Positions 5,951 through 33,804 of a DNA stretch of 36,221 nucleotides are shown here, piece by piece. The translations under genes were made by a program, and so were the position numbers. Each line of letters opens with the position of its first letter. Position 1 is the stretch's first letter. The notes under the pieces were generated by a model. It saw nothing but the letters and a program-made list of their open reading frames with translations. It did not search any database and had not been told where the DNA came from. Origin of the DNA: Gammaproteobacteria bacterium (GTDB lineage: Bacteria > Pseudomonadota > Gammaproteobacteria > SpSt-1174); assembly GCA_037388465.1 (NCBI GenBank), contig JARRKE010000025.1, forward strand, positions 1 through 36,221, read 5' to 3'.

Positions 5951-7222
5951 TCAGCCCGGCGGGCCTTCCAGCAACTCGCGGATTATGCCAAGCAACCGTT
6001 CGGTGACGCCCCGATTGGATTCGACCACCTGACGCCCGCTTTCCCCGATGTGACGTCGCTTGTCGTCATCCGTGAGCAGGTCTTCCAGCCAGGCGGCGAT
6101 GGCGACGGTATCGTCGGCGTGCACCGCGGCGCCGGCCTGAAACAGGCGCGCATAGACCTCGTTGAAGTTGAAGATGTGCGGACCGGTCAGCACCGGGAGG
6201 CCGAGCGCGGCGGGCTCGAGCGGATTGTGTCCACCGATGGGAATCAGGCTGCCGCCGACGAAGGCCGCGTCCGCCGCGGCATACAGAGCCAGCAGTTCGC
6301 CCAGGGTATCGCCGACCAGCACCTGGGTATCCGGGGCGCATGCGGCGCCGGTGCTGCGCCGCATGGAACGCAGGCCCTGCTCCCTGCACAGCGCGGCGAC
6401 CTCATCGAAGCGTTCCGGATGGCGCGGCACCAGAATCAGGAAGGCATCGGGCAGTTTTTCGAGCACGCGGTGATGCGCGTCGAGCAGGATATCGTCCTCA
6501 CCCGCATGGGTGCTGGCGGCAATCCACACCGGCCGGCTGCCCAGACCTTCGCGCAATGCCTGTCCCTGCGCGACCTGTTCCTCCGGCACCGAGATGTCGA
6601 ACTTGATGTTGCCGGTCTGCTGCACCCGCTCGCCTGGCGCGCCCAGCTCCAGAAAGCGCTGCGCATCCTGTTTGCCCTGCGCCGCGATGTGACTGATGTG
6701 CCAGAGGGTGCGGCGGGTGAGCGAAGCGAAGCGCGCATAACCGCGCGCGGACCGCTCGGACAGACGGGCATTGGCGATCATCAGCGGGATGTCGCGCCGG
6801 GCGCAGGCGGCAAACAGGTTGGGCCAGAGCTCGGTTTCCATGATCACGGCGATCAGCGGGCGCGTCTTGCGCAGGAAGCGGCGCACCACGTGCGGCAAGT
6901 CGTAGGGCAGATAGCAGTGATCCACGCTGTCGTGAAACAGCCGCCGGACCTGAGCCGAACCGGTAGGCGTGGTCGTGGTCACCAGGATGCGGTGGCCGGG
7001 GAATTCCGACTGCAGACGGCGGATCAGCGGCGTACTGGCGATGACCTCACCCACCGAAACGGCATGCACCCAGATGCGCGGCACGTTGGGCAGCCGCGGG
7101 TAATGCGCGAAACGTTCGGCGATGCGGCGGTGATAATCGGGATTGGCGCGACCGCGCCAGTACAGGCGCGCAATCACCAGGGGAGTCAGCAGATAAAGCA
7201 GCAGGCTATACAGGATGCGCAT
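5951..7222 (-). CDS. waaA: 3-deoxy-D-manno-octulosonic acid (Kdo) transferase
   Basis: WaaA (KdtA) transfers Kdo from CMP-Kdo to the lipid IVA precursor at the inner face of the inner membrane. The 423 residues match E. coli WaaA (425) along the full length. There is an N-terminal membrane anchor (MRILYSLLLYLLTPLV), then HAVSVGEVIAS containing the conserved catalytic Glu. TTTTPTGS, YLPYDLP, METELWPNL and IANARLSERSARGY follow, and in the C-terminal Rossmann half LVPRHPERF and GGHNPLEPAA. The start overlaps the 3' end of the aldo/keto reductase gene by 37 bp. The N-terminal alignment to E. coli makes that start the natural one. It is the last gene of the hldE-FAD-AKR-waaA series. Confidence 0.96.
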   Translation of the reverse strand: MRILYSLLLYLLTPLVIARLYWRGRANPDYHRRIAERFAHYPRLPNVPRIWVHAVSVGEVIASTPLIRRLQSEFPGHRILVTTTTPTGSAQVRRLFHDSVDHCYLPYDLPHVVRRFLRKTRPLIAVIMETELWPNLFAACARRDIPLMIANARLSERSARGYARFASLTRRTLWHISHIAAQGKQDAQRFLELGAPGERVQQTGNIKFDISVPEEQVAQGQALREGLGSRPVWIAASTHAGEDDILLDAHHRVLEKLPDAFLILVPRHPERFDEVAALCREQGLRSMRRSTGAACAPDTQVLVGDTLGELLALYAAADAAFVGGSLIPIGGHNPLEPAALGLPVLTGPHIFNFNEVYARLFQAGAAVHADDTVAIAAWLEDLLTDDDKRRHIGESGRQVVESNRGVTERLLGIIRELLEGPPG

Positions 7223-7977
7223 GCGTTGGACTTGAGATGTTCGGGATTGATGGTGCCCAGCACCACGCTGCTCACGCCGGGCTGGGAGAAGACGAAGCGC
7301 AGCGAGGTCTCGACCGGATCGCCGCCCTCCAGGCGATGCAGATGACCGCTCATGAACGCCTTCTTGATCAGCACACCCTTGTGGTGGGTGGCGGCAGCCT
7401 CGAGCACCGGCAGCTCATCGGTGTATTCGGGATTGCAGGTGGCCATGACGATGTCGCAATGCTCCACCACCCACAGACCGCCTTCGACGGTCTTGGTGGA
7501 CATGCCATAAGCACGGATCAGACCTTCCTGCTTGAGCCTGTCCAGCGTTTCCAGCACCGGCTCTTCATGAATGATGCGCATGTCGTCGCCGTCGGAGTGC
7601 ACCAGCACCGCATCGATGTAATCGCGACCCAGGCGTCTGAGGCTGCGCTCGATGCTCGCGCGGGTTCCCGCGGCGCTGAAGTCGAAGCTCGACTGCCCGT
7701 CTTCGAAGCTTTCGCCCACCTTGCTGACGATGATCCAGTCGCCGGTGTCGGGCAGCAGCTTGCCGAGACGTTCCTCGCTGGTGCCGTAGGCGGGCGCGGT
7801 GTCGATGAGGTTGATGCCCAGCTCGCGCGCCAGGGCCAGCAGGTCGCGCACCTCGGCATCGTCCGGCAGCTCGAAACCACTGGGATATTTCACGCCCTCG
7901 TTGCGGCCGATCTTGACTGTCCCCAACCCCAGGACGCTGACCTGCATGCCGGTGCTGCCCAACGGCCTCAGCTCCAT
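7186..7977 (-). CDS. Aldo/keto reductase family protein
   Basis: This is a 263-residue TIM-barrel oxidoreductase, expected to be NADP(H)-dependent and cytosolic. The catalytic tetrad is recognisable: Asp and Tyr in LIDTAPAYGTSEERLG, Lys in IIVSKVGES, and His in AVLVHSDGDD. The C-terminal QPGVSSVVLGTINPEHL segment is the usual cofactor-binding end. The ATG at 7977 (MELRPLGSTGMQVSVLGLG) has a GGAGGG ribosome binding site. It overlaps the upstream FAD gene by 10 bp and the downstream waaA by 37 bp, so the three are surely cotranscribed. The last 13 residues contain five Cys and lie over the waaA start region. The substrate is unknown. The position between hldE and waaA suggests a sugar or LPS-related role, but this is inference. 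Confidence 0.88.
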   Translation of the reverse strand: MELRPLGSTGMQVSVLGLGTVKIGRNEGVKYPSGFELPDDAEVRDLLALARELGINLIDTAPAYGTSEERLGKLLPDTGDWIIVSKVGESFEDGQSSFDFSAAGTRASIERSLRRLGRDYIDAVLVHSDGDDMRIIHEEPVLETLDRLKQEGLIRAYGMSTKTVEGGLWVVEHCDIVMATCNPEYTDELPVLEAAATHHKGVLIKKAFMSGHLHRLEGGDPVETSLRFVFSQPGVSSVVLGTINPEHLKSNACASCIACCFIC

Positions 7978-9167
7978 GTGCGGCCCTCCACGTCCCACGG
8001 GTAGGGGGCAACCTCGGGGCGCGGCCATTCATCCAGTCCCGGCAGTCCCTCTGCCTGCGTGGGCGTATCCAGTCCCAGCCCGTCCATGACCATCTCGGCC
8101 AGACGCGGAGCCAGGGCCAGCTTGGTCGGCCAGGCCACGCCGACCGGGCCGGACCAGTTCAGGACGGGCAGGTCCGGCCGATGCCCGCCGGGCTGGCGGC
8201 CCTCCGCGCGGTCGACCCGCAACGTGGCCCATTCGGTATGGGCGAGATCGACCCAGGGCAGGATCTCCGCCAGTTCCGCATGCGCGGCATGAAGCTGTTC
8301 GTCGTGGGTGCGGTTGGCGCCGATTTCGGCTACCTGCCCGCCGACGTACCAGACCTGTCGCCCGGCGCGGTCGCGGTTGCTGGTGATGGTGGCACGCGGA
8401 TTGGCGCTGACGCCCAGGCAATGGGCGTACAACGCGGGCAGTTCGCCGCGCACCATGACCATCTGCAGCGGGCGGCGCTGCATGGGTGCGGCAGCGGCCG
8501 GCAGGGCGCGGGCCAGTGCTTCGTTGCCCGCCCCGGCGGTGAGGATCACGCGTCGCGCCCGCAGGCTCAGTTGCTCGCCGCTTGGCGCGCGCACCGCCAT
8601 GCGTACCCCGTCGTCGCCTATCTCGAGCCTGACCGCATTCGGATCGATATGCAGCAAGCTGTCGGCATACGCGTCACTGAAGGCGCTGAGCAGGGTTCGC
8701 GTGTCGAGCACCGGCTCGTCGAGCTGATAGAGGCTGCCGTGAAAGGCGCGCTCGGCGAACGGTTCGGGATGCCGGTCGCGTTGCAGCGGCTGCATACGCG
8801 CCTTCATCGCCTTGCCCGCAAAAAAACCGGTGAGCTTCGAACCCAGCGACTCGGTGGTCCACAGGTACTGATGTTCGGAAAGAATCGTGGCCCGGCTGAG
8901 ATCCGGTTCGCCCTGCCCCTGCAGGGCGGCGCGCCAGATGCCGGGCATGGCGCCGATGGCCTCGGCGGCCCCGCTCAGCTTGCCCGTGAGGGAATACTTG
9001 GTGCCGCCATGGATGATGCCCTGCGAGGCCACGGTCTGACCGGGGCCGAGGGCATGCCCTTCGCACAGCACGCACGAGAACCCGGCGTGACGCAGACGGG
9101 CCAGCAGCCACAATCCGGCGATTCCACCGCCGACAATGGCTACGTCGACCTGTGCCTCGCTGGTCAC
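7968..9167 (-). CDS. FAD-dependent oxidoreductase (DAO family)
   Basis: This is a protein of about 399 residues with an N-terminal dinucleotide-binding fold (VDVAIVGGGIAGLWLLARLR). It also has the DAO-family second half, including RRVILTAGAGNEALARAL and a glycine-rich WYVGGQVAEIG. It resembles glycerol-3-phosphate/amino-acid dehydrogenase-type flavoproteins, but the substrate cannot be told. A TTG at 9173 overlaps the hldE stop (TTGA), while a GTG at 9167 lies 2 nt beyond it with a GGGAAG box 7 nt upstream. I chose the GTG. The downstream aldo/keto reductase overlaps by 10 bp. Sitting inside an LPS inner-core operon, the two redox enzymes may act in sequence on one sugar or alcohol substrate (inference). 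Confidence 0.82.
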   Translation of the reverse strand: MTSEAQVDVAIVGGGIAGLWLLARLRHAGFSCVLCEGHALGPGQTVASQGIIHGGTKYSLTGKLSGAAEAIGAMPGIWRAALQGQGEPDLSRATILSEHQYLWTTESLGSKLTGFFAGKAMKARMQPLQRDRHPEPFAERAFHGSLYQLDEPVLDTRTLLSAFSDAYADSLLHIDPNAVRLEIGDDGVRMAVRAPSGEQLSLRARRVILTAGAGNEALARALPAAAAPMQRRPLQMVMVRGELPALYAHCLGVSANPRATITSNRDRAGRQVWYVGGQVAEIGANRTHDEQLHAAHAELAEILPWVDLAHTEWATLRVDRAEGRQPGGHRPDLPVLNWSGPVGVAWPTKLALAPRLAEMVMDGLGLDTPTQAEGLPGLDEWPRPEVAPYPWDVEGRTWS

Positions 9168-26745: not shown

Positions 26746-29646
26746 CTACGGCGCTTCCATCCAGCGCCGCCAGTAGTCGCGCACCAGGGCACGATCATCG
26801 GCATATTCCGCCTCGTCCACCACGGTCTCGTGTTCCTGCAGGGCCAGGGCATGGGTGCGGTTGCGCAGGGCACGATAGGCGTCGGCCAGGGCCTGCGCGT
26901 CATCCGGGGTCATCAGCCCGCACTGGGCCAGCCCGCCGAGAATGCGCACGTTATCGGAAAACTCCGTGAGCTCCGGATGCGCGTGGGCATGGGCGAGAAC
27001 CATATATTGCACCATAAATTCGATGTCCGCGATACCGCCCGGGTCTTTCTTGAGGTTGAATTGCCCCGTCTGCCTGCTGCCCAGCTCGCGCCACATGCGC
27101 TCGCGCATATCGCGCACGTCCCGGCGCAGCTTTTCGGGGTCCCGCGCCTGGGTGAGCACCTCGTGGCGAATACGGGTGAACGCTTCCTCCAGGGCCCGGC
27201 TGCCGGTGATGAAACGGGCGCGCACCAGGGCCTGATGCTCCCACGTCCAGGCGTTGCGTTTCTGGTATTCCCCGAAGGCCTGCAGGCTGCTGACCATCAG
27301 CCCCTTGCCGCCGTCCGGCCGCAGCCGGGTATCGACCTCGTAGAGAATGCCCTGTGCGGTGTGGGCGGTGAGCATATGGATGAAACGCTGCGCCAGGCGG
27401 GCATAGAACACGGCGTTGTCGACCGTCTGCGGACCACCGGTTTCCTGGCGCGCCCCGGCGCTGTCGTGCAGGAACACCAGATCCAGGTCGGAGCCATAGC
27501 CGATCTCCAGCCCGCCCAGCTTGCCGTAGCCGATCACCGCGAAACCCGGGGCATAGGGCTTGCCGTCGATCTCGCAGCGGGGTTCACCGTGCTTGTGCGC
27601 CAGGGCGTCCCAGACGTAGCCACGCACCTTGTCGAGCACTGCCTCGGCGATCCAGGTGAGCTGATCGCTGATCCGCATCAGGGCCAGACGCTGCATCACG
27701 TCCGCCGCGGCCACCTTGAGCACCTGAGTCTGCTTGAAATGACGCAGCCGGTCCATGACCTGTTCCAGATCATCCGGATCGATCTGCACCAGATCGTCCT
27801 CCAGCAGCGCGACCAGTTCGTCGCGGCTGGGCGGCTCGTACAGGCTGCGCGCGTCCAGCAGCTCATCGAGCAGAATCGGGTGCTGGGTCAGCAGACGCGC
27901 GATCCAGGGACTGGCCGCGCACAGCCGCACCAGCTGCGACAGCGCCATCGGATTCTCGACCATCAGCGCCAGATACACCGAACGCCGCGCCACCGACTGC
28001 ACCAGTTCCAGACCGCGCTGCAGGGCGAGATCCGGCGCCGCGGTTTCCGCCGACGCGCCGATCATCAGCGGCATCAGCCGGTCCAGCCGTTCCCGCCCGG
28101 TCGGGGTGAGCGACTGGATGGCGCGGCTGTCGCGCAGGGCGCGCAGTCGTTCATATAAGGTGGCGGCCGCTTCATAGCCCATGGAGGCCAGCAGCTTTTC
28201 GGATTCCGCCTCCGGCATTCCCTGCCGCCACAGGTCCGCGAGCTGGCCGTGGAGATGATCGCCGTCTTCCCCGCCATCCTCCATCTGCGGGGAAACGAAG
28301 ATCTGATCGAAATTCTCGTGCACGCGCCGCATGTGACCCTTGAGCGTCTTGGCGAACTGAGCCCAGTCGTCGAAGCCCATGGAAAGGGCGAGCGCCGCCC
28401 GTCCCTGTTCCTCCTGCGGCAGGGCATGGGTCTGCTGGTCGCCCGCCATCTGCAGCCGGTTTTCGGTGCGACGCAGGAACGCGTAGGCCGTCAGCAGCTG
28501 TTCCACGGCGTACTCGGGCACCAGTTCGAGCCTGGCCAGGGCTTGCAACACCGGCTGGATACCGCGTTTGCGCAGGGCGCGTTCGCGCCCGCCGCGTATC
28601 AGCTGGAAAGCCTGACCGATGAATTCCACTTCGCGAATCCCGCCCGGGCCGAGTTTGACGTTGTCGCGCAGGCCCTTGCGTTCGGTTTCGCGGTTGATCA
28701 GCACCTTCATCTCGCGCAGCGATTCGAAGGCGCCGAAATCCAGATAACGCCGGTAGACGAACGGACCCAGGCGGTCGAGCAGCTCGCGCCCCGAGGCGCG
28801 GTCGCCCGCGATCACCCGCGCCTTGATCATGGCGTAACGTTCCCACTCCCGGCCGTGCGCCTGGTAATAATCCTCCAGCGCATCGAAGTGCATGACCAGC
28901 GGACCGGGGTCGCCGAACGGGCGCAGACGCATGTCCACCCGGTAGACGAAACCGTCGGCGGTATGTTCGTTGAGCGCCCGGATCAGGCGCTGGCCGAGCC
29001 GGATAAAGAACTGCTGGTTGTCGAGCTGACGCACCCCGTCGGTGTAACCCGGCCTGGGGTAGCCGAAGATCAGATCGATGTCGGAGGAAAAATTGAGCTC
29101 TTCGCCGCCCAGCTTGCCCATGCCGAGCACGACCAGTTGCTGGGGCTCCCCCGACTTGCTGCGCGGCGTGCCGTAACGCCGGCAATGATCCGCATACAAC
29201 CACTCCAGCGCGGCATCGGTGCACGCCTCGGCCAGGTGGCTCAGGTCGCACAGGGTCTCCTGCAAATCCGCGCTCCCGTCCAGATCGCGCCAGGCGATGC
29301 GCAGCATCTCGCGGTGCCGGAAATGGCGCAGCGCACCGAGCAGCCCCGCCTCGTCCCCGACCCCGCGCAGCGCCGTCCTGGCGCGCGCCGGGAAATCCTC
29401 GCAGCCGTACGTGCGACGCAGATCGCCGCTGCCCAGCAGATCGGCCAGCAGCTCGGGATACCGCGTGCAGGTCTGCGCCGCGAAATCGCTCACCGCCCAG
29501 ACCAGCGGCAGCGAGTCCGGTAGCGCGGGCAGGTCGATGCCCGCCTCCGCGACGGCCTGTTCGAAGCGCTCCCAGTGATGCAAAAAACCCTGGCGCAGGC
29601 TCTCGGGCAGGCGGTGATCGGGCAGTGGAATGGCGGGTTCGCTCAT
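26746..29646 (-). CDS. glnE: Bifunctional glutamine synthetase adenylyltransferase / adenylyl-removing enzyme
   Basis: GlnE adds and removes AMP on glutamine synthetase under control of PII protein. The 966 residues match the usual length (E. coli 946). There are two nucleotidyltransferase domains. The N-terminal deadenylylating one has LGMGKLGGEELNFSSDIDL (about residues 173-191). The C-terminal adenylylating one has VIGYGKLGGLEIGYGSDLDL (about 700-719). The linker contains KLGPGGIREVEF and the last part LKKDPGGIADIEF, both family motifs. The ATG at 29646 (MSEPAIPLPDHRLPE) is preferred over a start 12 codons upstream. It is transcribed away from the surface-protein genes. Confidence 0.96.
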   Translation of the reverse strand: MSEPAIPLPDHRLPESLRQGFLHHWERFEQAVAEAGIDLPALPDSLPLVWAVSDFAAQTCTRYPELLADLLGSGDLRRTYGCEDFPARARTALRGVGDEAGLLGALRHFRHREMLRIAWRDLDGSADLQETLCDLSHLAEACTDAALEWLYADHCRRYGTPRSKSGEPQQLVVLGMGKLGGEELNFSSDIDLIFGYPRPGYTDGVRQLDNQQFFIRLGQRLIRALNEHTADGFVYRVDMRLRPFGDPGPLVMHFDALEDYYQAHGREWERYAMIKARVIAGDRASGRELLDRLGPFVYRRYLDFGAFESLREMKVLINRETERKGLRDNVKLGPGGIREVEFIGQAFQLIRGGRERALRKRGIQPVLQALARLELVPEYAVEQLLTAYAFLRRTENRLQMAGDQQTHALPQEEQGRAALALSMGFDDWAQFAKTLKGHMRRVHENFDQIFVSPQMEDGGEDGDHLHGQLADLWRQGMPEAESEKLLASMGYEAAATLYERLRALRDSRAIQSLTPTGRERLDRLMPLMIGASAETAAPDLALQRGLELVQSVARRSVYLALMVENPMALSQLVRLCAASPWIARLLTQHPILLDELLDARSLYEPPSRDELVALLEDDLVQIDPDDLEQVMDRLRHFKQTQVLKVAAADVMQRLALMRISDQLTWIAEAVLDKVRGYVWDALAHKHGEPRCEIDGKPYAPGFAVIGYGKLGGLEIGYGSDLDLVFLHDSAGARQETGGPQTVDNAVFYARLAQRFIHMLTAHTAQGILYEVDTRLRPDGGKGLMVSSLQAFGEYQKRNAWTWEHQALVRARFITGSRALEEAFTRIRHEVLTQARDPEKLRRDVRDMRERMWRELGSRQTGQFNLKKDPGGIADIEFMVQYMVLAHAHAHPELTEFSDNVRILGGLAQCGLMTPDDAQALADAYRALRNRTHALALQEHETVVDEAEYADDRALVRDYWRRWMEAP

Positions 29647-29752: not shown

Positions 29753-29798
29753 GGCAGCGAAAGCGGTTGAACTTGCCCCCGGAATTACCCTATGGTTT
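29753..29798 (+). promoter_or_regulatory. Duplicated upstream element, copy 1 (promoter-like)
   Basis: A 34-nt core (29764-29797) beginning CGGTTGAACTTGCCCCC and ending ATTACCCTATGGTT is repeated at 31249-31282 with one mismatch. It lies 170 nt before the first surface-protein gene. TTGAAC could serve as a -35 box, and GAACTT recalls ECF sigma -35 boxes, but the -10 is not obvious. Conservation between two otherwise different leaders argues for a shared control site. Confidence 0.65.
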
Positions 29799-29816
29799 CA
29801 ATCAATTATAAATAGC

Positions 29817-29845
29817 GGATTTGACACACTAATCTGGTCAAATCC
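29817..29845 (+). repeat. Inverted repeat in the leader of the first surface-protein gene
   Basis: Perfect 9-bp arms GGATTTGAC and GTCAAATCC surround an 11-nt loop, 19 nt past the duplicated promoter-like element. It is absent from the second copy of the leader. It could be an operator or an mRNA leader hairpin. Confidence 0.55.
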
Positions 29846-29866
29846 CAAGCAATCGGGCTTCAACAA

Positions 29867-29881
29867 GGGCAGCAAATGCCC
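29867..29881 (+). repeat. Small leader hairpin, copy 1
   Basis: GGGCA and TGCCC form a 5-bp stem with loop GCAAA. A matching hairpin with different loop bases lies at the same relative place in the second leader (31347-31360), just before a shared CAACGAAC and CCGGGGATAC sequence. Confidence 0.5.
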
Positions 29882-29906
29882 ACAACAACGAACCGCCGGG
29901 GATACG

Positions 29907-29975
29907 ATGACGTATCGATGCCGCAGGTCCGTGCCGGCCGCTGCCGCGCTAACGATGGAGAAATCCCATGTCTAG
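29907..29975 (+). CDS. 22-codon leader ORF, relic of an SBBP-type signal peptide
   Basis: The ATG at 29907 opens MTYRCRRSVPAAAALT, which matches the start of the SBBP protein at 31396 (MTYRSRLAIPAAAAALI) in both DNA and protein. It follows the same CCGGGGATAC box. The frame ends with a TAG at 29973-29975 that overlaps the ATG of the next gene (29968) in the arrangement ATGTCTAG. It is best read as the leftover of a duplicated gene start. It could still be translated and couple translation to the downstream gene. Confidence 0.55.
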   Translation: MTYRCRRSVPAAAALTMEKSHV

Positions 29976-31152
29976 ATTCGCACGCCTGCTGTCTGCGACA
30001 GCCCTTCTCTGGCTGCTCGCCACGGCAGCGTCGGCGGACGTCCTTCATTACATTTCCATAACAGACACGAGATTCCCTCCAAACGACCCGCCTTCCGCGA
30101 CCTGGACCCTCTCGGACACCTACGGCGATACGCCCCTGAATTCATGGATTGTCTACACCGGCGACGACTCATGGAGCACGATCACGTCCAGCGGAACGCT
30201 TCCCGACGGCGTGGCCTATCCCTACGGACAGACCTACACGGTGTCGAGCGGCATTGGTACGGTTCAGGCCGTCGTCGACACCCCCCTGTATGACGAATAC
30301 ACGAACCCCCAACGCACGGCCTTTGTGGAGTTGAACGTTCAGTCGCTGGACACCTCGAGCGCACAAACCATGGAACTCGGCCTGACCGACGGGGCCAACG
30401 AGGTCAAATGGGATGAAGCCGCCGGAACGATCTCGGGCTCCAGGAGCGGCCTCTCGGGCGACGATGTGACGGGTATATCGCGCTGGAGCAGCCTGGGAAG
30501 TCTTCCTCTACACATTCAGTACTACTACCAATTCAACGATCACGTGCTCACCTTTATCGTCCTGGACGATGTGGGCAACAAGTTATACACGGTCAGCTGG
30601 CAGGGTTCGGTAAACCCCTTTGAGAACTTCTACGGTTCCGTCGCCGTCCCCGGCGGCACCGACCCCAACAATCTGATGGTCTATCCGTTCGTTTTCTGTG
30701 AAGCCGCCTGTCAGACGAAGCTCGTGAAGACGGAATACCTGAACTGCAACACCGCTTCCGGTGCGGTCGACGTGAATAACTGCCAATCGCCCAACGAGTC
30801 GGTTATCACCGCCAGTGCCGGCAGCGGCGGCAGCGTCTCGCCGATCAAGGCCGTGGTGATCACGGGCAACCAGGCGGTCATCAGCGTGACCCCTGATACC
30901 GGCTACCACATCGACAGCGTCAGCGGCTGCGGCGGCAGCCTGTTGGGCACCCTCTACACCACCGGAGCGGTCAGCGCCGACTGCACCGTCAGCGCGACCT
31001 TCGCCGTTGGCAGCTCAAGCACCAGTACCACCACCAGCACCAGCAGCAGTTCTGGCGGCGGCGGTGGTGGCGCGCTGGGTCCGTGGGCGTTGTTCGGCCT
31101 GCTGCTGCTAGGCATACCGGCACTCGCCGTTCGCCGCCGTCGGACCGGCTGA
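29968..31152 (+). CDS. Secreted protein with C-terminal GlyGly-CTERM-like sorting tail
   Basis: This is a 394-residue protein. Its signal peptide MSRFARLLSATALLWLLATA is cleaved near ASA-DV. It has an unrecognised beta-rich body (about residues 25-265) with Trp/Tyr-rich segments. A Cys-containing region (about 250-275) precedes a domain of the bacterial-repeat type (about 275-347; ISVTPDTGYHIDSVSGCGG... then CTVSATF). After a Ser/Thr linker come six glycines, a hydrophobic helix (ALGPWALFGLLLLGIPAL) and VRRRR. That tail matches the GlyGly-CTERM layout, in which a rhombosortase cuts the protein for surface attachment. Export and sorting are inferred; the function of the body is unknown. The tail DNA is nearly identical to that of the next gene. 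Confidence 0.78.
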   Translation: MSRFARLLSATALLWLLATAASADVLHYISITDTRFPPNDPPSATWTLSDTYGDTPLNSWIVYTGDDSWSTITSSGTLPDGVAYPYGQTYTVSSGIGTVQAVVDTPLYDEYTNPQRTAFVELNVQSLDTSSAQTMELGLTDGANEVKWDEAAGTISGSRSGLSGDDVTGISRWSSLGSLPLHIQYYYQFNDHVLTFIVLDDVGNKLYTVSWQGSVNPFENFYGSVAVPGGTDPNNLMVYPFVFCEAACQTKLVKTEYLNCNTASGAVDVNNCQSPNESVITASAGSGGSVSPIKAVVITGNQAVISVTPDTGYHIDSVSGCGGSLLGTLYTTGAVSADCTVSATFAVGSSSTSTTTSTSSSSGGGGGGALGPWALFGLLLLGIPALAVRRRRTG

Positions 31153-31240
31153 GGTTTTGCCCGCAAGTCAGACAACCGCATCCAGCGCGATCACCGACGC
31201 CTCGAGTGCCGCCAGCCTCCGTTCAGCAAGATTACAAAGC

Positions 31241-31284
31241 GGCAGAAACGGTTGAACTTGCCCCCGCAATTACCCTATGGTTCC
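31241..31284 (+). promoter_or_regulatory. Duplicated upstream element, copy 2 (promoter-like)
   Basis: This is the second copy of the 34-nt core (31249-31282), with C in place of one G, 114 nt upstream of the SBBP gene. It lies in the 243-bp gap after the first surface-protein gene. The second gene may therefore have its own promoter rather than depend on read-through. Confidence 0.65.
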
Positions 31285-31346
31285 GGGCCTATACAAATTA
31301 CACATACACCGGCTCCGCCTTCCCCGAAGAATCCGGCTTACGCACC

Positions 31347-31360
31347 GGCAAGCGGATGCC
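31347..31360 (+). repeat. Small leader hairpin, copy 2
   Basis: GGCA and TGCC form a 4-bp stem with loop AGCGGA. It is the counterpart of 29867-29881 and is followed by the same CAACGAAC and CCGGGGATAC sequence before the start codon. Confidence 0.45.
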
Positions 31361-31395
31361 TACCAACGAACAACAAACCACCGGGGATACATCCA

Positions 31396-33804
31396 ATGAC
31401 ATATCGATCCCGCCTGGCTATACCGGCCGCTGCTGCCGCGCTTATCTGCGCTTTCATCGCAACCAGTGCTCAGGCCACCACCCTGCCGCCGGACGCCAAG
31501 CTCGTCACCAGGCACACCACGCCCGCGCAGCAGCAAAAGCTCGCCAGCTTGAGCCTGCCGTTCGTCCAGAACACCGGCCAGATCGACAAGCGGGTCGCCT
31601 TCTACGCCCGTACCTTTGCCGGCACCGCCTTCGTCACGCATCGTGGTGAGCTGGTACTCAACCTGCCGGGCAAACCCGAGGGCACAGCGGACAAGGGCCG
31701 GCCCGCCAAACACGGTCACGGCTGGGTGCTGACCGAGATGCCGGTGGCCAAAGCCAAGCTCACCCCGCAGGGCGAAGGGCTGTCACCGACCAACGTGTCC
31801 GTGTTCCAGGGCAACGATCCCAGGCAGTGGCGGACGCACCTCAAGACCTACACCGCGGTGAACATCGGCCAGCCCTGGCCGGGCATCGGCTACGCCATCC
31901 ATGCCCACGGCAACACCGTGGAGCGCATCTTCACCGTGCAGCCCGGCGCGGATGCCAAAACGATAACGATGCAGGTCCGGGGCGCGGACACGCTCAGCCT
32001 CGACAACGGCGCCCTGATCGCCCACACCGGCAACGGCCCGGTGACGCTGAGCAAGCCGGTTGCTTACCAAACCCTCAACGGCCAGCGCAAACCCGTGCAG
32101 GTCGCCTATGTGCTCAACAACAACCGCTACGGCTTCAAACTCGGCGCTTATGACAAGAGCCAGCCCGTGGTCATCGACCCGCTGGTGCAGGCCACTTACC
32201 TGGGCGGGTCGGCCAATGATGACGGTTATGCTCTGACGCTGGGCGGCAGCGGCCAGGTCTACGTCGCGGGCGACACCACTTCTGCGGACTTCCCCGGCAC
32301 CACCGGCGGCGCACAACCGGCCACAGGCGGCAACACAGACGCCTTCGTGGCCGAGCTGAGCGGCGACCTCACCCAGCTCCAGCAGGCCACCTACCTGGGC
32401 GGGCTGAACGACGATGATGCCCGCGCCCTGGCGCTGGGCAGCAGCGGTCAGGTCTACGTGGCAGGCTACACCCATTCCGCGAACTTCCCCTGCACGGATT
32501 CCACGAATACCTATACCGGGGTCACCTGCGACAGCGGCACCGCACCCAGTGTCAGCGGCGCGCAGCCGACCCTGAGCGGCAACACAGACGCCTTCGTGGC
32601 CGAGTTGAGCGGCAACCTGCAGACCCTCACCCAGGCCACCTTCCTGGGCGGGCCGAACTACGATTGGGCCTACGCCCTGGCGGTGGGCAGCAGCGGCCAG
32701 GTCTACGTGGCGGGCGCCACCCTATCCACGAAATTCCCCGTCACCTCTGGCGGCGCACAGACGACCTACGGCGGTGGCACCGCTGATGGCTTCGTGGCCG
32801 AGCTGGACGGCAACCTGCAGACCCTCACCCAGGCCACCTTCCTGGGTGGGTCGGGCAATGATGCCGGTTATGCGCTGGCGCTGGGCGGCAGCGGCCAGGT
32901 CTACGTCGCGGGCTACACTGTTTCCCCAAACTTCCCCTGCACGGATTCCACGAATACCTATACCGGGGTCACCTGCGACAGCGGCACCGCACCCAGTGTC
33001 AGCGGCGCGCAACCGACCACAGGCGGTGGCAGCAACGGCGACGCCTTCGTGGCCGAGCTGAGCAGCGACCTCGCCACGATCCAGCAGTCCACCTACCTGG
33101 GCGGGACGGGGTCTGACCAGGCCCAGGCCCTGGCGCTGGGCGGCAGCGGCCAGGTCTACGTCGCGGGCTACACTGTTTCCACGGACTTCCCCGGCACCAG
33201 CGGCGGTGCGCAGGCGGCCAACGCGGACAGCACCGGCTCTACCAACGACGCCTTCGTCGCCGATTTGAGCGGCAACCTGCAGACCCTCACCCAGGCCACC
33301 TACCTGGGCGGTTCGGGCAACGATCAGGCCCAGGCCCTGGCGCTGGGCGGCAGCGGTCAGGTGTACGTCGCGGGCTACACCGCTTCCACGGATTTCCCCG
33401 GCACCAGCGGCGGTGCGCAGGCGGCCAACGCGGACAGCACCGGCTCTACCAACGACGCCTTCGTGGCCGAGCTGAGCGGCGATCTGCAGACCCTCACCCA
33501 GGCCACCTACCTGGGCGGGTCGAGCGACGATCAGGCCCAGGCCCTCGCAGTGGGTAGCAGCGGCCAGGTCTACGTCGCGGGCTACACCGCTTCCACGGAC
33601 TTCCCCGGCACCAGCGGCGGTGCGCAGGCGGCCAACGCCAGTTCTAGCGACGACGCCTTCGTCGCCCAGTACAACGGCCTTGCGGCGACCTCATCTTCCA
33701 TCAGCGGCGGTGGCGGCGGCGGTGGCGGCGCGCTGGGTCCATGGGCGTTGTTCGGCCTGCTGCTGCCCGGACTCGGCCTGCTGCGGAGAAAACGCCTCCG
33801 CTGA
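31396..33804 (+). CDS. SBBP seven-bladed beta-propeller surface protein with GlyGly-CTERM-like tail
   Basis: This is an 802-residue secreted protein. A signal peptide (MTYRSRLAIPAAAAALICAF, cleaved near AQA-TT) comes first. An N-terminal domain of the kind usual in SBBP proteins follows (about residues 40-260; FVQNTGQIDKRVAFYAR). Seven SBBP repeats come next (about 265-760), each with a YLGG, a GSGQVYVAGYT and a DAFVAEL element. The tail has eight glycines, the helix ALGPWALFGLLLPGLGLL and RRKRLR. It is probably exported, cut by a rhombosortase-like protease and displayed at the surface. Binding partner unknown. The ATG at 31396 has a GGGGA-type box upstream. An in-frame start 48 codons earlier has no signal character. 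Repeats are nearly identical in DNA, which points to recent expansion. Confidence 0.85.
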   Translation: MTYRSRLAIPAAAAALICAFIATSAQATTLPPDAKLVTRHTTPAQQQKLASLSLPFVQNTGQIDKRVAFYARTFAGTAFVTHRGELVLNLPGKPEGTADKGRPAKHGHGWVLTEMPVAKAKLTPQGEGLSPTNVSVFQGNDPRQWRTHLKTYTAVNIGQPWPGIGYAIHAHGNTVERIFTVQPGADAKTITMQVRGADTLSLDNGALIAHTGNGPVTLSKPVAYQTLNGQRKPVQVAYVLNNNRYGFKLGAYDKSQPVVIDPLVQATYLGGSANDDGYALTLGGSGQVYVAGDTTSADFPGTTGGAQPATGGNTDAFVAELSGDLTQLQQATYLGGLNDDDARALALGSSGQVYVAGYTHSANFPCTDSTNTYTGVTCDSGTAPSVSGAQPTLSGNTDAFVAELSGNLQTLTQATFLGGPNYDWAYALAVGSSGQVYVAGATLSTKFPVTSGGAQTTYGGGTADGFVAELDGNLQTLTQATFLGGSGNDAGYALALGGSGQVYVAGYTVSPNFPCTDSTNTYTGVTCDSGTAPSVSGAQPTTGGGSNGDAFVAELSSDLATIQQSTYLGGTGSDQAQALALGGSGQVYVAGYTVSTDFPGTSGGAQAANADSTGSTNDAFVADLSGNLQTLTQATYLGGSGNDQAQALALGGSGQVYVAGYTASTDFPGTSGGAQAANADSTGSTNDAFVAELSGDLQTLTQATYLGGSSDDQAQALAVGSSGQVYVAGYTASTDFPGTSGGAQAANASSSDDAFVAQYNGLAATSSSISGGGGGGGGALGPWALFGLLLPGLGLLRRKRLR
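32482..32564 (+). repeat. 83-bp perfect direct repeat, copy 1 (SBBP blade 2 insert)
   Basis: Encodes NFPCTDSTNTYTGVTCDSG and onward. It is identical by reading to 32929-33011. It adds a loop with two cysteines to blade 2. Confidence 0.9.
32929..33011 (+). repeat. 83-bp perfect direct repeat, copy 2 (SBBP blade 4 insert)
   Basis: Identical to 32482-32564. It adds the same two-cysteine loop to blade 4. Blades 1, 3, 5, 6 and 7 lack it. Confidence 0.9.

Follow-up and report, generated by a model that had tools for sequence, protein, structure and literature searches.

In the window, by which we mean the whole 36,221-nucleotide stretch analysed (contig JARRKE010000025.1 of a Gammaproteobacteria bacterium), two neighbouring genes have related ends and unrelated bodies. 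We consider it fairly probable that the ends of one of them, gene B, were duplicated locally and that the body between the copied ends was exchanged, giving gene A, with a common sigma-70-like promoter before both genes and tails that rhombosortase could cleave behind them. At this single locus, a new sorted surface protein may have gained a control region and a sorting tail from its neighbour. Gene B (31396-33804, plus strand) encodes 802 aa with a signal peptide, a DUF7948 domain, SBBP beta-propeller repeats and a Gly-rich/TM/basic tail. Gene A (29968-31152, plus strand) encodes 394 aa with a signal peptide, a domain of about 240 aa, an InlB B-repeat (Flg_new_2) and a Gly-rich/TM/basic tail. 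The earlier note on this DNA, made from the letters of the sequence, had placed two different proteins behind a duplicated promoter and leader; the bodies of A and B are indeed unrelated, and both proteins end in a sorting-type tail. Its idea that a new surface protein was brought under one control also agrees with our data, because an unrelated body now stands behind the duplicated promoter and leader.

The duplication of the core and leader is real and far beyond chance. A 34-nt core lies on the plus strand at 29764-29797 (copy A) and at 31249-31282 (copy B), and the copies are identical at 33 of 34 positions, which bears out the element with one mismatch described earlier; over a longer span, 37 of 39 positions are identical. 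The pair was found with E=1e-13 in a pairwise blastn and with E=1e-9 in a self-comparison of the whole window, and 100 dinucleotide shuffles of the window contained no such match. Downstream in copy A, an SD region and the beginning (~16 codons) of a copied signal peptide of the gene B type (29884-29954, plus strand) align at 50 of 65 positions with copy B, where the leader boxes CAACGAAC and CCGGGGATAC (the SD) and the beginning of gene B's signal peptide occupy 31364-31444 (plus strand). Both copies carry the two boxes, as had been noticed. The DNA between the core and the SD/start segment is weakly similar and much decayed, yet still above shuffles (z 3.7; the core reaches 11.5 and the SD/start part 9.7). 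Since even this stretch exceeds the shuffle level, the entire leader probably descends from a single ancestral sequence. A duplicated core and SD/start segment with decayed DNA between them speaks for a local duplication.

The two leaders differ in folding and in what they encode. Only copy A has a strong hairpin (GATTTGAC/GTCAAATC, 29819-29845, plus strand; z -4.7 over 36 nt); the copy B leader folds at the level of shuffles (z -0.2 and -0.4) and has no counterpart of it. A search of the window against Rfam returned no matches. ATG 31396 is the true start of gene B, so that the first codons MTYR were read correctly for copy B. In copy A the MTYR codons stand in a reading frame other than that of protein A. 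Read directly, they open a 22-codon ORF (MTYRCRRSVPAAAALTMEKSHV followed by a stop; 29907-29975, plus strand), a relic of the copied start. The copied signal-peptide codons stop ~14 nt before the ATG of gene A, in another frame, and gene A begins at 29968 with its own GGAG SD and its own signal peptide. The stop of the 22-codon ORF and the start of gene A overlap (ATGTCTAG), so that the two may be coupled in translation. Thus, the duplication reported in the earlier note stands, but neither the hairpin common to both copies nor MTYR as the start of protein A does.

The similarity returns at the 3' ends. The segments 31053-31108 in gene A and 33711-33766 in gene B (both plus strand) are identical at 54 of 56 nucleotides. 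Where the tails encode the same residue, 16 of 19 codons are identical, compared to 10.5 expected from codon usage (P 0.007), and this excess of identical codons favours common descent of the tails over convergence. Since the tail is common to both genes as well, gene A appears as an unrelated body between gene B-like ends. For its N-terminal domain of about 240 aa we found no relatives in 93 other genomes, viral contigs or the PDB; in these collections only the InlB repeat and the tail of protein A had matches. A structure prediction without an alignment gave a mean pLDDT of 35 for protein A and was not usable. The closest paralogue of gene B lies on contig C19 (52% identity); it has no core before it, and its signal peptide and tail differ. 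A search with a two-sequence alignment returned distant DUF7948 proteins only, mostly from other phyla and one from Rhabdochromatium. As a separate observation, the SBBP repeats of gene B (window 32187-33640) are 77-91% identical to one another at the DNA level, which suggests recent expansion or conversion of the repeats.

These features are best explained if the gene ends were copied locally, in this lineage only, and now enclose a new body. The source would be gene B, which encodes a DUF7948/SBBP surface protein and whose ends would have been duplicated on the spot. Between signal-peptide codon ~16 and the Gly-rich tail, one of the copies would then have lost its body to an unrelated gene, or had it rebuilt around such a gene; this gene, now gene A, retained its own SD and signal peptide. 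This order of events is the one we infer from the frames and the duplicated segments. Transcription of A and B probably begins at promoters that are copies of each other and lie within the core, and rhombosortase could cleave the Gly-rich, hydrophobic and basic tails before type II secretion (T2SS) takes the proteins to the surface.

The promoter assignment depends on how the core is read. From its sequence we infer a sigma-70-like promoter, TTGAAC-N18-TATGGT, with the proposed -35 and -10 hexamers at 29767-29772 and 29791-29796 in copy A and at 31252-31257 and 31276-31281 in copy B (plus strand). In favour of this reading, TATGGT resembles the -10 hexamers proposed for five other promoters of the genome, listed further below. 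The hexamers match the sigma-70 consensus at 8 of 12 positions, under the scan threshold of 9/12, and a consensus scan at that threshold listed nothing. A second potential -10, seen by eye, lies further downstream, 16 nt after TTACCC (TATAAA in copy A, TACAAA in copy B), and is less conserved. The GG-N10-GC spacing of a sigma-54 promoter is absent from the core, as read by eye. A further feature stands against the sigma-70 assignment: the spacer has been kept as well as the hexamers, although recognition of the hexamers alone would not require this.

This conservation would be accounted for if the core were the operator of a dedicated regulator or an ECF sigma promoter (GAACTT-N16-TATGG) serving these two genes only. 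The whole core, spacer included, was kept while the adjoining leader decayed until it could hardly be aligned, and GAACTT equals the -35 element of RpoE/AlgU-type promoters. However, ECF sigma factors usually have several targets, and no core beyond the two copies was found in the genome at 3 mismatches or with the middle left free. The difference in conservation between the core and the SD/start part is modest (Fisher P 0.026), and no regulator gene was recognised near A and B in the ORF list of the window. We therefore regard such an operator or ECF promoter as possible but unlikely. A related variant, in which gene A arose when an unrelated body was fitted between the 5' and 3' modules of its neighbour and the core is a private operator for the pair, seems to us rather doubtful.

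The copy number of the core bears on its mobility. The genome is a draft of 2.79 Mb in 151 contigs, and the genome-wide motif searches used fixed patterns. It turned out that the core occurs twice in the genome at up to 3 mismatches, and still twice when its ten central bases are left free. The earlier note had set this search as a test capable of refuting its reading, and on the sequence side it returned only these two copies. No core was found in the 93 other genomes, in viral contigs (exact match over 26 fixed bases) or in a public genome collection (exact match with four central bases free), and the copy A region gave no blastn match to plasmids; the source genome itself may have been left out of the public genome, viral and plasmid collections. 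In the ORF list of the window, inspected by eye, we recognised no transposase, integrase or other recombinase beside A and B. The mobile cassette proposed in the earlier note is thus not supported, with no second locus in the genome and no copy in these collections. A recombining cassette, in which the promoter/signal region and the tail stay fixed and the surface-protein bodies between them are exchanged again and again, would account for the fact that both ends of A and B are homologous at the DNA level and the bodies are not. However, there is a single such pair: neither the core nor the tail has a third copy in the genome, none of the 93 other genomes showed a core, and no recombinase was recognised nearby. 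In addition, the nearest relative (G001) has an unrelated gene before tamA, so that there is no allele series to compare. We consider repeated swapping of this kind improbable.

We also assessed how the tails of A and B compare with known sorting signals. Both are tripartite, with a Gly-rich motif, a TM stretch and a basic cluster (...SSSSGGGGGGALGPWALFGLLLLGIPALAVRRRRTG, ...SISGGGGGGGGALGPWALFGLLLPGLGLLRRKRLR). With the model TIGR03501 they score 13.8 (A) and 13.4 (B) bits, just under the GlyGly-CTERM cut-off of 15.5, and we call them GlyGly-CTERM-like, below family membership. The genome has one rhombosortase gene (921-1523 in locus L054; the family match covers 1017-1472 of contig C44), which scores 130.2 bits against a cut-off of 84 and lies directly before gspC- and gspD-like genes, named from their ORF sequences. 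This arrangement closely links the sorting protease to type II secretion. Because rhombosortase is encoded beside gspC/gspD, A and B are candidate substrates of rhombosortase and the T2SS; their processing is a prediction only, since the tails fall under the family cut-off.

The known GlyGly-CTERM/rhombosortase system (TIGR03501/TIGR03902) offers the closest comparison. In the portions of PMC3237569 and PMC6219818 considered here, its tails, like those of A and B, combine a Gly-rich motif, a hydrophobic stretch and a basic end, and the single rhombosortase gene beside T2SS genes is a further point in common; the tails of A and B differ in scoring just under the family threshold. In Vibrio cholerae, rhombosortase cleaves proteins of this kind, which are modified and exported to the surface through the T2SS (PMC6219818). 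The part of Haft and Varghese (PMC3237569) considered here describes GlyGly-CTERM regions within one genome as homologous through paralogous domain formation, with differing bodies; as at our locus, otherwise unrelated secreted proteins have tails made homologous by duplication. A promoter and leader common to the genes in addition to the tail, as in A and B, are not mentioned in the same portions of the two papers. The PEP-CTERM genes under RpoN, as presented in the consulted part of PMC9850573, are likewise genes of sorted surface proteins with specific transcriptional control, but their sorting signal differs from that of A and B.

One gene on contig C24 reaches the GlyGly-CTERM cut-off and fits JDVT-CTERM better (54 bits, cut-off 27). 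It encodes a CSLREA/choice-of-anchor Q protein with a JDVT-CTERM tail (C24, 27906-29387; 3907-5388 in locus L058). Because of this tail, a second C-terminal sorting system is likely present in the genome beside rhombosortase. The core is absent before this gene, as it is before the paralogue of gene B, and with two copies in the genome and none in the 93 other genomes we rejected the core as the mark of a regulon.

The upstream regions of the C19 paralogue and of the C24 JDVT-CTERM gene share a different element, the box GGTAACCC-N3-GGTAACCC. When the box was searched for across the genome, five sites had no more than 2 mismatches in the repeats; four of these fall in a 1.8-kb stretch of C19. 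Each followed by a downstream hexamer (GGTAACCC-N3-GGTAACCC-N9-TAYNNT), the five sites lie on C19 (locus L050) at 68079-68097, 69026-69044 and 69413-69431 on the minus strand and at 69819-69837 on the plus strand, and on C24 (locus L058) at 27776-27794 on the plus strand. At 3 mismatches there were 19 sites, and a reversed control pattern gave 14 in all. TAYNNT stands exactly 9 nt after the second repeat in all five sites with at most 2 mismatches and in none of the 19 three-mismatch sites; in the C19 stretch, hexamers of this class occur at 0.0027 per position. The box by itself had led to three of the five sites, so that their hexamers are independent support. By position, the box stands before the C19 SBBP paralogue and the C24 JDVT-CTERM gene and probably also before three more genes, for a 231-aa envelope-like protein, a 71-aa ORF and a CC0125-type lipoprotein. 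These promoters of envelope and sorted-protein genes likely form a small regulon. A regulon of sorted or envelope proteins such as the earlier note suggested thus seems to exist, but it is marked by an element other than the core.

The geometry of the box comes close to the one described for SARP activators, with an 11-bp distance between repeats and 8 bp separating the 3' repeat and the -10 (PMC10936776); the C19 and C24 boxes are direct repeats at an 11-bp period with the 3' repeat near the -10. In SARP promoters of the AfsR/afsS type (PMC10936776; PMC5930380) the 3' repeat likewise lies 8-9 bp before the -10, and, as on C19, a BTAD regulator with NTPase and TPR regions is found nearby. The only BTAD gene found in the genome is on C19, and of the five boxes four lie at most ~7.5 kb from it. 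It consists of two overlapping minus-strand ORFs in different frames, one MalT-like NTPase and one BTAD/TPR (6355-8232 and 8171-9433 in L050), as if split by a frameshift, a deletion or an assembly error. The setting differs: the bacterium here is Gram-negative and has a T2SS, and the products of its C19 and C24 genes are envelope and sorted proteins, whereas those SARP promoters belong to a Streptomyces antibiotic cluster. We predict that several envelope or sorted proteins here are under a SARP-type direct-repeat element, a kind mainly known from antibiotic genes of Streptomyces. Before ten DUF7948/SBBP loci of other genomes, some with little upstream DNA, we found no direct repeats of 11-bp period.

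That the core belongs to the same regulon is very hard to believe: all these genes encode surface or sorted proteins and the core -10 TATGGT resembles the five other proposed -10 hexamers (TACGGT, TACAGT, TATTTT, TACGTT and TACGAT), but the box is absent from the window at up to 3 mismatches, and a 34-position matrix built on the five promoters with the box gives 41-49 bits to its own sites (its training data), whereas its best scores in the leaders are -7.6 bits for A and -9.6 bits for B. With these scores and no 11-bp direct repeat like that of SARP promoters, the core was rejected as a SARP box.

Elsewhere in the window, a minus-strand ORF for a membrane protein contains an exact 55-bp tandem duplication at 489-598 (489-543 repeated as 544-598). 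It is either a real lesion or an assembly artefact, and it shifts the reading frame, since 55 is not a multiple of 3.
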